Assembly (NCBI RefSeq): GCF_000172155.1
Contig: NZ_ABIZ01000001.1
Location: 4,993,105 to 5,057,104 of the forward strand
Source of the DNA: Verrucomicrobium spinosum DSM 4136 = JCM 18804
GTDB taxonomy: Bacteria; Verrucomicrobiota; Verrucomicrobiia; Verrucomicrobiales; Verrucomicrobiaceae
DNA: 64,000 nucleotides
Direction: 5' to 3'
Part shown: one piece after another, positions 17,416-22,706 of the stretch
Layout: the number at the start of each line of letters is the position of its first letter
Numbering within the stretch: the first letter of the stretch is position 1
Notes under the pieces: generated by a model
Told to the model about the DNA's origin: nothing
Databases searched by the model: none
The model's input: only the letters and a program-made list of their open reading frames with translations
Made by a program: the position numbers and the translations under genes

Positions 17416-17931
17416 CTATCGAGGAGCCAACAACTCCATCAACGCAGGCACGTCTTCATCATTCACCATCTGGGGTGGCGTGCCCACCTTGATGACAAAG
17501 CGCTGCGGTTTCTCAAACATTTGCCCGTTGGCCTCCTTGAACGCATAAGGTGCCACCAGCAGCGGGGTGTCGTGAGAAGCTTCAGGGGGCACATGGTAGA
17601 TCCACTCTGCCCAATCCACTTTGGCCTCTGGTTTCAAATAATCTTGCTGACGTCCCAGCACTTCCACCTTGGGGTATAGCAGGGCTTTGGTGTCCCGCAG
17701 GAGGCCAGGTCCGCATAACTCTGCGAGTGCCTTGGGCCACTTCTGATTTTCAGCATGAAAGGTCTCCAATGCAGATGCCACCTCGGCCCCGCCAGACTTG
17801 AGCGCCTCATAAGCACTCTGGTCGCCCGGCCCTCGTGATTCGCATCCCGCCAGCGGAAAGAGGAGTGCGGCAAACATCAGAGTTCTCAGGAACGCGGGCA
17901 GGATCGAAAGCATTTTCGCCCATAGCTGCAT
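17416..17931 (-). CDS. Predicted lipoprotein of unknown function
   Basis: The 171-residue product has a type II signal sequence with lipobox LAGC, with Cys near residue 29, after MLSILPAFLRTLMFAALLFP. The mature part starts with a long helix-like segment (SAYEALKSGGAEVASALETFHAENQKWP) that resembles pilin-like or type II secretion pseudopilin-derived proteins, where such a segment is followed by a small beta domain. This resemblance is weak. Met7 is an alternative start. Confidence 0.6.
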   Translation of the reverse strand: MQLWAKMLSILPAFLRTLMFAALLFPLAGCESRGPGDQSAYEALKSGGAEVASALETFHAENQKWPKALAELCGPGLLRDTKALLYPKVEVLGRQQDYLKPEAKVDWAEWIYHVPPEASHDTPLLVAPYAFKEANGQMFEKPQRFVIKVGTPPQMVNDEDVPALMELLAPR

Positions 17932-17994
17932 TCCTGCGTCAACTCAAGACGGTCTCCGTTTTGCCAGACGCAAACCGAGTCATCGTCGCCAAAA

Positions 17995-18050
17995 GCTGAA
18001 AATTCCGCTTTTGTTTTGACAACCGACATGAAAAAGGCTGAAAATTCCGC
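17995..18050 (+). promoter_or_regulatory. Promoter/operator region of the blaI-like gene: 14-bp direct repeat
   Basis: Two identical copies of gctgaaaattccgc lie at 17995-18008 and 18037-18050, 42 bases start to start (four helical turns). TTGACA at 18016-18021 followed 17 bases later by TGAAAA (18039-18044) could be the promoter, so the second copy overlaps the -10. The arrangement suits repressor binding on one DNA face. The start codon is only 2 bases beyond the second copy. Confidence 0.5.
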
Positions 18051-18052
18051 CC

Positions 18053-18490
18053 ATGGCAGAATTACCAGCCTTAAGCAAACGAGAGCGGGAGATCATGGAC
18101 ATCGTGTTCGCCCGCGGCAGTGTCACCGTATCTGACCTGCTCTCCGAAATGAGCGATCCGCCCACCCGGTCGGCCTTGCGGTCGCTGTTGACCATTTTGG
18201 AGGACAAAGGCCATCTGCAGCACGGCAAACAAGGACGCGAATTCACCTATCGGCCCACGATCGCCCGCCAGGAAGCGGGGCGGTCCGCTCTCAGCAGAGC
18301 CATCCACACTTTCTTCTCGGGCTCCTTGGGCAAGGCTCTGGCCGCTCACCTCTCAGATCCTGGCGCGAGCTACAGCGAGGAAGAGCTTCGCTCAATCTCA
18401 GAATTCATCGAGTCGAAGCGGAAAGAGCACACTCGTACGGCCTCTTCCCTCAGCACACAGACTCCTCCTTCACCCAAGTCAAAATCATGA
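18053..18490 (+). CDS. BlaI/MecI-family transcriptional repressor
   Basis: This 145-residue winged-helix repressor resembles those paired with BlaR1-type metalloproteases. LSKREREIMDIVFARGSVTVSDLLSEM and SALRSLLTILEDKGHLQHGKQGREFTYRP are the family's helix-turn-helix and wing. In characterised systems the repressor is inactivated by proteolysis when the membrane sensor is triggered. The stop overlaps the start of the downstream M56 gene (ATGA at 18487-18490), so translation is coupled. The start at 18053 leaves a very short leader if the proposed promoter is right. Confidence 0.88.
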   Translation: MAELPALSKREREIMDIVFARGSVTVSDLLSEMSDPPTRSALRSLLTILEDKGHLQHGKQGREFTYRPTIARQEAGRSALSRAIHTFFSGSLGKALAAHLSDPGASYSEEELRSISEFIESKRKEHTRTASSLSTQTPPSPKSKS

Positions 18491-20793
18491 ATCTGATGCT
18501 CCTGAACCATTCCGACTTGGCCGCCCTGAGCCCGCTGCTTGTGACCTTCACCGTGCAGGTCACTCTGCTCTTTCTCGCGAGCGGATTGGCGCTTGGGACA
18601 TTCGGTCAACGATGGTCAGCCTCAAACCGGCATGCGCTGCTGTTGGCTACCGCCTTGCTGGTGCCCCTTCTGATCCCTACATCGATGGCACTTCAGAATC
18701 AGGGCGTGAGTTGGACGATTCTGACGACTGAAGCAGAAGGTGCCACGAAATTGCCCGGCGCATCAGGTTCATGGAAACTGGCCTCGGCCCCCTCTCCGGA
18801 GGAACCCCAAGCCGAGCCTGGCTCTTTTACCCCGACAAGCCCCCCCTCGGGTGGAGCAGGAGACAGTGGACCCGCCCAAGAATGGGACACCACGCACTAC
18901 TTAGTGGCGATCTGGGCGACCGGCCTGTTGGCAGGTGCTGCCTGGCTCATGCTAGGATTGTTGCAACTCGCGGGAGTGGCCCGTATGAGTCATCAGGCGA
19001 GCAGCCATCTGCAGGCTGCCCTGGATCGGCAACTCGCTCACTGGGCATGGGCACCTGGCTTCCAGGTAAAACTGCTGCGCGGCCGCCCCGGCGAGATCCC
19101 GATGACTTGGGGTGTCTTCCAGCACGTCATCACCCTGCCTCCGGAAGCGGACGGATGGCCCGCCTACGCTCTTCGCACTGTGCTTCGCCATGAACTCGGC
19201 CATGTGGCCAGGCGCGATTTCCTATGGCTCACTTGCGCACGGGTTTGCCTTCTGGCCTGCTGGTTCCATCCCCTGGCATGGTGGTTGTTGAAAGAACTCG
19301 CCCGAAGCGCTGAGCATGCCAGCGATGATCTGGCCACGGCATCGATTTCGGGGAGGGCTGCCTATGCCCGGAATCTTGTGCAAGTGGTGTCTCGCTGCCA
19401 TACGCCCGGCCGATTTGGGTTGACCTCCCCTTTCCGCCTGGCACTCGCCATGGCGCGCTCGTCCGCACTGCGACGTCGGGTGGAAGCCCTGATGGAGCAC
19501 CAGCGTGATCGCGCACCGTACCGCCGGGCACTTTTGAAATGGCAGGCCCCTGCATGCGCCCTCCTGGTTTTGGCACTGGGCAGCTTCACCGCGTGCAAGC
19601 AAGAGAATCGCGTGGAGACGGTGGAACCACCCGTTCCAGCCGCAGGCCTCGCCGGCAGCACAGACGATGGCGTGGATGCAAGTCCTGCCAGGAAGCCCGA
19701 CGAGACCCGCATTTATCGTCTGTCGGAAGAGTTGCGGAGGTTGTTGCTCATTGGTGCTTCGAGAGACAATACCGCGGGCGTCGATCCCTTCGCGAGCCCA
19801 CCCTCCCCTGTCCCTACCACGACGGTTCATGCGAAAACTTTGGAGAGGTATGCCACCGCAGCTCGTCTCCACTTGATCAACCACGGACACGTTTCCCACC
19901 GCGCGGATCATCCTCCGCAAGTCATCATGCCAGACATCCGCACGTTGATCGTGACGGCGGACGAACCAACGCACAACGCGATCGCCACTTACTTCGCCCA
20001 GCGCGACTCGGACCAACAGGTGTTGATTCGCAGCTTCATCCTCGAGGTTGAGCAAGGCTGGCTGCCCTGGAGCGACTACGGTCTGCAAGAACCGTCCAAA
20101 GATGGACTGCAGGTTCAGGGCATTCTGAGCAAGGAGCAGGGGCAGAAGTTGCTGACACACGTCCAGTCCGACAAGAGTGTCCAAAGCCTCACGGCCGCCC
20201 CCTCGGTAGCGACGCGTTCAGGCCAGCGCACGCATGTGGACATGGTGAGGGAGTTCATTTATCCCACCGAGTTCGACCCGCCGCAACTGGCGCAACCACC
20301 CACCACCAAGGACGGCAAGCCCATCCCAGGTCTCGGCAACCTGCCCATCTTCCCCACCACGCCCACCGCATTTGAAATGCGCCCCGTGGGACTGAGGATG
20401 GAATTTGACCCTGTCGTTCAGCCCGGCAACGTCCACCGCATCGAACTCTATTGGGAGATTACTGACTTCCTTGGGTTCATGAATTACGGCAACCCGATCA
20501 AGGCCCAGGTCAAAGATCAAAACGGCAAGGAGAAGGAATTGCTGATCTCCGAGAACAAGATTCAGCAGCCGATCTTTGAAACTCTGAAACTCACCACAAG
20601 TTTCTCCGCTCGTGATGGAGAGTATGTGGTGATCGGTGGCATCAGACCCCAGCGCCGCGCTCCGACCCCTGTGGACTCAAGCGCTGTGTTCACCCCGGCC
20701 ATGCCAAAACCGAAATCCGCCGACCCATCCAAGCCATCGATGTACATCCTGATTCTACAGCCCACCGTGGTGACGAACGCTGCGACAAAATAG
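18487..20793 (+). CDS. BlaR1-like M56 metallopeptidase fused to a secretin-like C-terminal region
   Basis: This is a 768-residue membrane protein. Residues 1-340 are an M56 domain with hydrophobic helices near 20-40, 50-70 and 140-160. The zinc motif HELGH is at 235-239 (VLRHELGHVARRD), followed by FHPLAWWLLKELARSAEHASDD. A further membrane helix ends in GSFTACKQ near 365. In place of a penicillin-binding sensor, the C-terminal half (about 465-765) resembles a secretin core: VIMPDIRTLIVTADEPTHNAIATYF, then SLTAAPSVATRSGQR, then REFIYPTEFDPP, GLRMEFDPVV and ARDGEYVVIGGIRPQ. Coupled to the BlaI gene, it is probably an envelope-stress protease-sensor. The fusion reading is from motif resemblance only. 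Confidence 0.8.
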   Translation: MNLMLLNHSDLAALSPLLVTFTVQVTLLFLASGLALGTFGQRWSASNRHALLLATALLVPLLIPTSMALQNQGVSWTILTTEAEGATKLPGASGSWKLASAPSPEEPQAEPGSFTPTSPPSGGAGDSGPAQEWDTTHYLVAIWATGLLAGAAWLMLGLLQLAGVARMSHQASSHLQAALDRQLAHWAWAPGFQVKLLRGRPGEIPMTWGVFQHVITLPPEADGWPAYALRTVLRHELGHVARRDFLWLTCARVCLLACWFHPLAWWLLKELARSAEHASDDLATASISGRAAYARNLVQVVSRCHTPGRFGLTSPFRLALAMARSSALRRRVEALMEHQRDRAPYRRALLKWQAPACALLVLALGSFTACKQENRVETVEPPVPAAGLAGSTDDGVDASPARKPDETRIYRLSEELRRLLLIGASRDNTAGVDPFASPPSPVPTTTVHAKTLERYATAARLHLINHGHVSHRADHPPQVIMPDIRTLIVTADEPTHNAIATYFAQRDSDQQVLIRSFILEVEQGWLPWSDYGLQEPSKDGLQVQGILSKEQGQKLLTHVQSDKSVQSLTAAPSVATRSGQRTHVDMVREFIYPTEFDPPQLAQPPTTKDGKPIPGLGNLPIFPTTPTAFEMRPVGLRMEFDPVVQPGNVHRIELYWEITDFLGFMNYGNPIKAQVKDQNGKEKELLISENKIQQPIFETLKLTTSFSARDGEYVVIGGIRPQRRAPTPVDSSAVFTPAMPKPKSADPSKPSMYILILQPTVVTNAATK

Positions 20794-22706
20794 TGAGGCA
20801 GGGCACAATGAGGCTGAGAGGTGGCCTGCCGACCAAGCGGTAGCACTGCTCGTGGTGCATGCCCCCTCTCCCTTGCTCCCACTCCAGGGTGCGAGGCACT
20901 CACAAGCACTACCAAAGCGGCGGCTCCTGCATGCACTCGTAGGGTGGTTTGCTTCTCTGAAGAGCCTGCCATTTCGAAAGCCACTCAGATTTCCCAACAT
21001 CACAACACCCCCAACGTCTGGAGACGAAGTCGCTGTGGAGTGCGGCGTGAAGCGCCGCTTTCGCGCCCCTCGTAATCATCTCCCAACAGATGACTGGCAG
21101 CAGCGGCACTGGCCCGCTCAGTTTCGCGCCAGCGTCTTGAAGGTCGGTGGCTCGACACCGCTTTCGCCAGCAGGTTACGCGGACAACGAGCGTAGTGGGT
21201 GGCCTGGTGATGATGCGGTCAACCGTGAGCAGTACGCGCCCCCACTCCCCTGCTCTCACCTCACGGTACGAGGAACTCACAAGCGCCACCAAAGCGGCGA
21301 TTCTCGCGCGCATTCCCAAAGATGCTTCGCATCCAGGTGCTGGAAGCCTTGGGTTCTTTTGAAAGCTCCCACGGCTTTCGACATTGAATGTCCAGCATCT
21401 TGGCCACGCATTCCAGCCTGCCCGGACATTCATCTGTCGCGACGCCCCCCACTTTTCAACCACCCCAAAACAGCGGTGTAGTTGTCGACGTAAGGAGGCA
21501 CTAACTGAAGCGTCTGCGGCATGATTCTCGCCTTCGAACACCAACCACCCAGTGCTCCGCCCCCAACCGGCCGAGCGGACACCTTGGACCCTTGCCCCTT
21601 TCCCAGCCACATCACCAAAGACCGTGAAATTTGTGCCAGCCAAGGAACCTGGGGTGGTGAAGCATAGACTGACAGGCTTCAGATGGCCTGTGCCCAGGAA
21701 GCTCGGGGAGCGCACGCATCCTGCGTGCTGTTTGCGGCATCTTGCCGCGAACGTCAGTCAGCGCATGACATCAGGTCCGACTGACGTGGGTGTTTTGATG
21801 GCGATGGGAAGAAAGCAGATGCTATCGGCCTTCCCACCTGATCGTCCTCTGCGGGGGGACCCAACGTTGACTCGTCCCGCCTTGCGGGACTCGTCCAACC
21901 ACTGGGCTGTGCTACAAATCCCCTTCGGGGATTGGGGATTAACTGACGGACTGAGCAGGAGTTGGTTTCTTGGTAGCCCCCAATGCGCGAGGTGGGTCGA
22001 TCCTCCTCACGTCGGCAACTGCATCGGCATTGGAAGCTGGCAGGCAGAAGGCACATCCCAGACCTCTTGTTTGCTGAGGCAGCCTGAAGAGCTTGTCCGC
22101 CGCAAAGGCTTGAACAACCGTCCCGGTGCTTGTTCCCGCGTCCGCCAATGTCCCCAAGAGCCGGGACGGCTCTTCCACCTTGTACAAGGCATCCGCCCAG
22201 ATCTCCAAACTGCACAACACCCCCAATACCTGGCGACGAAGTCGCTGTGGAGGGCGTGCGGGAACCGCCGCTTTTGCGGCCCTGGTGATCATCTCCCATC
22301 AGACGACTCCAACAGCGGCATCGGCCATCCCAACCTCGCGGCAGCGTCTTGGAGTGCTGGTGGCTCGACACCGCTTTCGCCGGCGGATGACAGGGACAAC
22401 GAGGGTCATGGGCAGCCTGCTGATGATGCGGCCAAGCGGGAGCCGTTACGGGCACGCTGCTCCCCTGCTCCCATTCTCTGGTACGAGGAACTCACCAGAG
22501 CCGCCAAAGCGGCGGTTCCCGCACGCACTCCCAAAGATGCTTCGCATCCAGATGTTGTGGGTCCGGTAGTAGCTTGAGGATCAAACAGCCTCCGATGTCA
22601 CCCACTCCAGCGCTCTCGCCCCACCCCTGACCTCAGGTCTGATGTCTGGCGTCTGGCAGTCTGATGTCTGCGTCCTCTCCCGCTTCGCGGGTCGCAGTAC
22701 ACAGAC
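20794..22706. repeat. Non-coding repeat-rich spacer between M56 gene and rRNA operon
   Basis: About 1.9 kb without a credible gene. A degenerate unit of about 350-380 bp occurs at about 20988-21345 and again at about 22200-22555 in the same orientation, with shared blocks such as acaacaccccca, ggtggctcgacaccgcttt and cggtacgaggaactcac. A third partial copy lies at about 20805-20945. Open frames across it are translations of the repeat and change frame between copies. Small hairpins with 3-base loops are frequent (for example 21321-21333, 21874-21890, 21917-21933, 22233-22245, 22536-22548). Confidence 0.75.
22633..22672. repeat. Degenerate heptamer tandem repeat (gtctg-type)
   Basis: A run of about five 7-base units of the type tctggcg / tctggca, beginning caggtctgatgtctgg. 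It is nearly identical to the prophage copy at 54356-54391 over about 36 bases. Confidence 0.7.

Follow-up and report, generated by a model that had tools for sequence, protein, structure and literature searches.

A BlaI/M56 operon of Verrucomicrobium spinosum encoding a membrane protease fused to a truncated secretin-derived domain, with a predicted lipobox at the last transmembrane helix

Introduction

In the BlaI–BlaR1 (MecI–MecR1) systems of Staphylococcus aureus and Bacillus licheniformis, the gene of a BlaI-type repressor overlaps or adjoins the gene of an M56 membrane peptidase, which carries a penicillin-binding sensor in the periplasm behind its last helix. To our knowledge, BlaI/M56 pairs are spread across many phyla, and the signal is understood only for those with penicillin-binding sensors. 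Here, we describe a BlaI/M56 operon of Verrucomicrobium spinosum DSM 4136 (= JCM 18804), in which the protease is fused to a domain derived from a type IV pilus secretin. The operon lies in a stretch of 64,000 nucleotides (assembly GCF_000172155.1, contig NZ_ABIZ01000001.1, positions 4,993,105 to 5,057,104 of the forward strand), which is called the window below and to which coordinates refer unless the genome is named. In the linker between the last helix and the sensor, BlaR1 of S. aureus is cut by the signal peptidase SpsB (between Gly331 and Gln332), and this cut was proposed to serve turnover of the receptor without beta-lactam (PMC9834060).

Results

The first gene of the operon encodes a BlaI-type repressor of 145 amino acids (18053..18490, plus strand; PF03965, E 4.3e-23), which was related by phmmer to a penicillinase repressor of known structure (1p6r, E 7.1e-8). 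It overlaps by 4 bases (ATGA) with the second gene (18487..20793, plus strand), whose open reading frame (ORF) of 768 codons was assigned to an M56–secretin fusion by its Pfam and NCBIfam matches. An earlier, sequence-only reading of this DNA had named the two genes as a BlaI/M56 pair. Both ORFs lie exactly where it had placed them, and the assignment holds for the protease as well, which matches PF05569 with E 1.4e-17.

The same reading had considered that a frameshift or an assembly error might have joined two separate genes. This was ruled out by 19 distinct, unbroken sequences of the fusion, which were obtained from the family of V. spinosum by searching other genomes and removing duplicates. 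The closest relatives, from Verrucomicrobium sp. BvORR034 (86% identical) and BvORR106 (75%), are both unbroken. Genome contigs were also scanned with ten fusions, which gave 309 pattern matches with 146 relatives among them and 80 retained loci; the fusion accounts for 19 of these loci, one being broken (L065). Among 386 searched genomes of the order, the fusion is whole in 19 and split in two in a further one (G104). The G104 gene probably corresponds to the broken L065, whose second ORF was used as it stands and unmended. A distant relative (locus L160) is present in G199, a genome from another family, and the other rows among the matches listed for the order are mostly true secretins. BlaI is encoded beside 18 of the 19 distinct fusions, the 19th of which begins at a contig end, and also beside L160. 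With an M56 profile, 9 of 387 genomes of the phylum gave a match at E 1e-45 or better, a number that says little on how common this kind of protein is because five candidates per genome were scored.

The M56 (BlaR1-type) peptidase domain covers residues 132-334 (18880..19488, plus strand), and in Foldseek the full-length AlphaFold model (predicted local distance difference test, pLDDT, 62.7) matches S. aureus BlaR1 (8exp-8ext) as well as secretins. The HELGH zinc motif is located at residues 235-239 (19189..19203, plus strand), and H235, E236, H239, E276, D280, and R331 are invariant in all 19 aligned fusions. In the alignment of the fusion M56 domain to BlaR1 (8exp, E 1.4e-10), which was read by eye, H235/E236/H239, D280, and R331 are equivalent to His201/Glu202/His205, Asp246, and Arg294, so that an HExxH...E zinc site with the Asp and Arg partners known from BlaR1 is present. 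Helices at residues 15-42, 45-71, 131-167, and 347-369 of the predicted model are compatible with four membrane helices and both protein ends outside the cytoplasm. A penicillin-binding sensor was denied by the sequence-only reading, in agreement with our searches: neither Pfam and NCBIfam nor Foldseek of the C-terminal half gave a transpeptidase or beta-lactamase match, and secretins match there instead.

The C-terminal half contains a truncated secretin-core-like domain at residues 541-722 (20107..20652, plus strand). Residues 541-720 match NF042912, the Amuc_1098 family type IV pilus outer membrane protein, with E 2.1e-49 (profile positions 565-751 of 805), although with 168 bits the score of a full-length equivalog (family cut-off 750) was not reached. 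The Pfam Secretin profile matches residues 567-722 with E 1.5e-5, yet its 25.1 bits are under the cut-off of 27.5. A probable remnant of an N-domain with a beta-beta-alpha-beta order precedes the core at residues 478-522 (19918..20052, plus strand), as judged from the secondary structure of the model, from an alignment to the N1-like region in secretins encoded by the same genome, and from a TIGR02517 match starting at residue 485. The secretin origin proposed in the earlier reading is supported by the profile match and by the structural comparisons described below, and all three motifs quoted in its favor (APSVATRSGQR, EFIYPTEFDPP, and VIGGIRP) occur in the protein. STN and NolW of Pfam, for which it had suggested a profile search, have no match in the fusion protein at E up to 1.

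NF042912 matches all 19 fusions, as does Pfam Secretin at E up to 0.01; M56 is present in 19 and an SLBB domain in 12 of the 19 scanned. In Wza-type proteins, the SLBB domain is part of polysaccharide export. A profile of the 19 C-terminal halves searched against PDB retrieved solved secretins, with GspD (6i1x) as the best match (E 6.7e-8), and via the SLBB-bearing rows also Wza. The AlphaFold model of the C-terminal half (pLDDT 68.7, predicted template modeling score 0.55) gave no indication of an unrelated fold, which the sequence-only reading had named as a possible outcome: secretins fill the first 40 rows in Foldseek with nothing notable after them, and in VIA they stand alone at Z 8.8-12.0, the next row being at 4.9.

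The earlier view of this half as a secretin core, if taken to imply a core able to act as such, was not supported. The segment from the first core strand to the next helix is 22 residues long in the protein of the window and spans 21-24 residues across 20 fusions and 22-24 across two stand-alone copies, versus 70-103 in 26 true secretins, so that about 70 core residues which all 26 possess are missing. The stretch behind the GG pair is also shorter (17-36 residues in the fusions versus 34-37 in true secretins). A VPxLGDxPxLGxxF-type motif, defined by a pattern of our own making, was found in none of 25 M56-fused rows, which count one gene twice (L004/L055), versus 26 of 31 rows without M56, where the exceptions are L028, L161, the second half of L065, the second ORF of L087, and L006. 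A first, stricter pattern, which was relaxed afterwards, had found 17 of the 31 secretin rows and none of the 25 fusions. In a tree of 49 secretin domains, 21 fusions and the two stand-alone copies are separated from the 26 true secretins with a branch support of 97/93; the weak rows L004/L055, L081, L087, L088, and L006 were left out of this tree, and it comes with a long-branch warning, above all for L160. Judged by its sequence, the C-terminal half of the window's protein is probably no working secretin. Because of the short core segment, the shorter stretch behind the GG pair, and the lost VPxLG motif, we consider it a recast piece of a secretin that is unlikely to make a pore alone.

The two stand-alone copies, L028 (G030) and L161 (G113), are short secretin-like proteins that lack M56 and group in one clade with the fusions, and their N-termini resemble ordinary signal peptides by eye. 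The secretin-derived domain can therefore exist without the protease.

The last transmembrane helix of the M56 half ends in the lipobox SFTAC (residues 347-370; 19525..19596, plus strand), with the codon of Cys370 at 19594-19596. A lipobox of the form [LF][TS]A-C after a hydrophobic stretch is present in 19 of 19 distinct fusions, in none of 5 other M56–secretin proteins, and in none of 58 M56 proteins without a secretin part. Of the 37 alignment columns that make up residues 340-376, no more than four are invariant across the 19 full-length fusions (R342, L364, A369, and C370); L or F occupies position 367, T or S position 368, and R or K position 371. The spacing between R331 and C370 is 39 in all 19 fusions, and the equivalent distance in BlaR1, from Arg294 to Gln332, is 38 residues. 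The lipobox is thus situated at the position where BlaR1 is cut. The genome encodes LspA (E 4.8e-35) and a LolA-like protein (E 1.2e-5), and signal peptidase II probably frees the C-terminal half as a lipoprotein. In two further M56 proteins from other phyla (L111 and L107; records of an uncultured proteobacterium and of the Myxococcales), the last helix likewise ends in a possible lipobox; in L111, a weak TonB_C match (19.8 bits, cut-off 24.6) lies behind the helix.

Two predicted operators are located upstream of blaI on the plus strand. Operator 1 is the dyad AGCTGAAAATTCCGCT (17994..18009), which is kept at the same place in related loci, and operator 2 the conserved dyad GGCTGAAAATTCCGCC (18036..18051), one base 5' of the start codon. 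Between them lies a −35-like box, TTGACA (18016..18021), to which we ascribe a promoter role; L062 and L063 aside, every listed locus has TTGA[CT] at roughly −33 to −40 relative to the start codon. A pair of dyads, spaced by 39-44 bases and usually enclosing TTGAC, occurs in the window and in each of the 17 related loci for which the upstream region is complete. In L065, the upstream region is cut and one dyad is visible; the start codons of a few loci were placed by hand.

The strict word GGYTGAWWWWTCARYC was searched in 31 genomes, 19 with the fusion and 12 without an intact one. The former contain 24 exact sites, 23 of which are at the operon (13 genomes), and the latter six single sites in four genomes. 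Six fusion genomes are devoid of the word: in G000 (V. spinosum itself), G001, G003, G011, and G018 because their dyad deviates from it, and in G026 because the contig begins at the gene. The window's own word GCTGAAAATTCNGC, searched in three genomes with up to one mismatch, has 18 matches in G000. Of the three exact ones, two lie at the operon and the third at 1268109 of the genome within a long open frame, and none of the listed one-mismatch matches forms a tandem pair. The twin dyads are most readily understood as BlaI operators, which would imply autoregulation with few or no other targets. Since exact operator copies are otherwise rare, the operon probably controls mainly itself.

Apart from close relatives, no conserved neighbor gene besides BlaI and M56 was found in a comparison of the window with 18 related loci, in which ORFs antisense to the blaI and M56 genes were set aside by eye. 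A divergent ORF (17416-17931, minus strand, 171 amino acids) with a lipoprotein-like N-terminus (PLAGCES) and without family match is also present in G001. Downstream of the operon, a duplicated stretch poor in genes (20868-22557) contains direct repeats of 45-98 bases, which are 76-84% identical and of which most copies are about 1213 bases apart.

The genome of V. spinosum (one contig of 8,220,857 bases) contains four M56 matches besides that of the window. One of them (L003, the same as L231; genome positions 8182537-8183412, plus strand) has a tail similar to the N0/STN region (residues 252-349 of the Amuc_1098 profile, E 3.8e-6), and dyads of the type TGCTAA...TTAGCA lie 5' of its BlaI gene. 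A second M56–secretin protein of 841 amino acids (L055:4583-7108, minus strand) comprises an N-domain and broken-up secretin pieces, with NF042912 matching over two stretches (E 1.7e-28). Another BlaI/M56 pair (L001; 7859710-7860375 of the genome, minus strand) has an M56 protein ending in ExbD/TolR (PF02472, E 1.9e-9). Counting the protein of the window, the genome thus has five M56 proteins, of which four carry a secretin or Ton-type piece.

In an M56 tree, which was built quickly, rests on the Shimodaira–Hasegawa-like approximate likelihood ratio test (SH-aLRT) as sole support, and has many open forks, the fusions, L160, L081, L087, L088, and L003 share one clade (SH-aLRT 90); the paralog L055 (as L004) is placed elsewhere on a long branch. 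L081, L087, and L088 are M56 proteins that keep a nearly whole Pfam secretin domain. Many of the M56 proteins compared have long C-terminal periplasmic parts of differing kinds. L233 (G105) and L236 (G114) combine M56 with a PBP2/MrdA-type penicillin-binding transpeptidase (PF00905, E 1.1e-35 and 7.7e-46, respectively), which by sequence would make them beta-lactam-type receptors with a class B penicillin-binding protein as sensor. Among nine M56 tails that were read, those of L237, L238, and L239, from other families of the class, are degenerate and by eye possibly secretin-like. NF042912 matches L237 with E 3.4e-4 and L239 with E 1.9e-7, L238 has no listed NF042912 match, and Pfam Secretin is below the cut-off or absent.

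Discussion

The second gene of the operon joins, in one chain, a protease with an intact zinc site and a truncated secretin-derived domain; a lipobox ends the last helix of the protease half, and putative tandem operators surround the operon's own predicted promoter. Tentatively, and with a likelihood that falls a little short of even, we read the operon as a self-contained BlaI/M56 circuit tuning its own secretin-derived lipoprotein, in which M56 would cut BlaI upon an envelope cue. A BlaI dimer would repress its own operon, and the last M56 helix would act as a lipoprotein signal within the chain. At Cys370, Lgt and signal peptidase II would then release the secretin-derived half (about 399 amino acids) as a lipid-anchored periplasmic or outer-membrane protein, this release standing in for the signal peptidase I cut by which the sensor of S. 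aureus BlaR1 is shed. The cue conveyed to M56 might be a missing or unprocessed lipoprotein or the binding of the lipoprotein to a partner, for example, the pilus secretin. Cleavage of BlaI by M56 would result in more fusion protein, with the last helix coupling both sides of the membrane as in BlaR1. Cutting of BlaI and the coupling by the helix are suggested by analogy, and we infer lipid modification, release, and a feedback by which the amount of the released half is controlled. As the search gave no further clear operator, the lipoprotein half probably serves the circuit both as sensor and as output, and its level would thereby be kept in balance. A more far-reaching version, which appears rather unlikely to us, makes the regulator its own sole output: protease and lipoprotein would be made as one chain and cut by signal peptidase II at the last helix, and the protease would watch the release or the later fate of the lipoprotein (lipoprotein sorting or secretin assembly) and adjust its level by cutting the repressor. 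This would give a single envelope component a balance of its own, the shedding site of BlaR1 being recast as a lipobox.

Several observations weigh against such a circuit. Lipidation, cleavage, and BlaI binding are all predicted. The lipobox is internal, at residues 347-370 of 768 and behind three other helices, and not N-terminal; the 19 sequences bearing it form one clade; and a laxer, PROSITE-like pattern matches 4 of the 58 controls in addition to 19 of 19 fusions and none of the 5 other M56–secretin proteins. The related fusion L160 and the other M56–secretin proteins are without a lipobox, which is therefore not essential to the wider kind. If processing were complete, M56 would lose its covalent sensor and signaling would need a non-covalent route. 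The 15 further one-mismatch matches of GCTGAAAATTCNGC, 18 in total versus 2 for a reversed control that differs in word make-up, weaken a clean regulon of the operon alone, and weaker sites elsewhere are possible. Finally, the models are modest in confidence (pLDDT 68.7 and 62.7), with Foldseek TM-scores of 0.2-0.4 and root-mean-square deviations of 4-16 Å for the secretin matches in VIA, which may be owed to domain orientation.

The fold and zinc site shared with BlaR1 would also suit a plain BlaR1-like receptor, whose secretin-derived domain remains covalently tethered and recognizes a ligand (the pilus secretin, a lipoprotein, a glycan, or a polysaccharide). The conserved cysteine would then merely anchor or shape the end of the helix, and binding would shift the last helix and activate M56. 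The long and varied C-terminal periplasmic parts of many M56 proteins fit this possibility, as does the additional SLBB domain of 12 of the 19 fusions with its link to polysaccharide export. It leaves unexplained, however, why L/F-T/S-A-C is conserved in 19 of 19 fusions while the surrounding helix drifts, and why a clear operator pair sits only at this operon; we regard it as possible but doubtful. The sequence-only reading had considered secretin assembly or outer-membrane status as a possible signal. For a sensor of secretin assembly speaks the descent of the domain from the Amuc_1098 family itself, with at least two such secretins in the genome (L056 and L057); in the periplasm, the cut-down domain would dock on subunits of this Amuc_1098-type pilus secretin and report their assembly. 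Yet no pilus or secretion gene adjoins any copy in the neighbor comparison, true Amuc_1098-type secretins are present in most searched genomes of the order with or without the fusion, and no operator was found at those secretins among the matches listed, which makes this explanation unlikely. Among 68 listed genomes of the family, only about 20 have the fusion, which could point to a functionless leftover of a chance gene fusion or to an artifact. However, zinc site, lipobox, domain, and operators are kept across sequences only about 30% identical to that of the window, and this conservation renders a leftover or artifact very unlikely.

As a BlaI/M56 system, the operon is a variant of a known design. 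Its combination of domains, the placement of a lipobox where BlaR1 is shed, and an operator pair almost restricted to the operon are apparently undescribed: no description was found in the open-licence literature, most subscription journals being outside its scope, which suggests novelty only weakly. A whole lineage of M56 proteins here bears secretin parts, and the fusion is a concrete example of a secretin domain recast to something besides a pore. If the lipobox works, a receptor's transmembrane helix would at the same time be a lipoprotein signal, and the signal peptidase cut of BlaR1, which has been little studied, would become a general and testable design element.

Among known systems, Lgt/LspA-processed lipoproteins share with the fusion the hydrophobic stretch, the [LF][TS]A-C lipobox, and Arg or Lys at +2, and LspA is encoded in the genome; their signal, in contrast, is N-terminal, whereas that of the fusion would be the last of four predicted membrane helices of a protease. 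The Amuc_1098 family type IV pilus secretin is the sequence source of residues 541-720 and probably also of the preceding N-domain. Unlike the fusion, it is not joined to a membrane protease, and it keeps the approximately 70 core residues and the VPxLG motif. Other Verrucomicrobiota proteins (L055 of the same genome, L081, L087, L088, and L160) likewise combine M56 with a secretin part but are without lipobox, and L081, L087, and L088 differ also in their upstream dyads (TGCTAR...YTAGCA, by eye). The closest counterpart is BlaI–BlaR1 (MecI–MecR1), with which the operon shares a BlaI-type gene overlapping or adjoining the M56 gene, the HExxH...E zinc site with its Asp and Arg partners, and a periplasmic domain after the last helix with a peptidase cut site, putative here, directly behind it. 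It differs in that the penicillin-binding sensor is replaced by a secretin-derived domain and the signal peptidase I site by a lipobox, and in that no separate target gene was found with the fusion operon.

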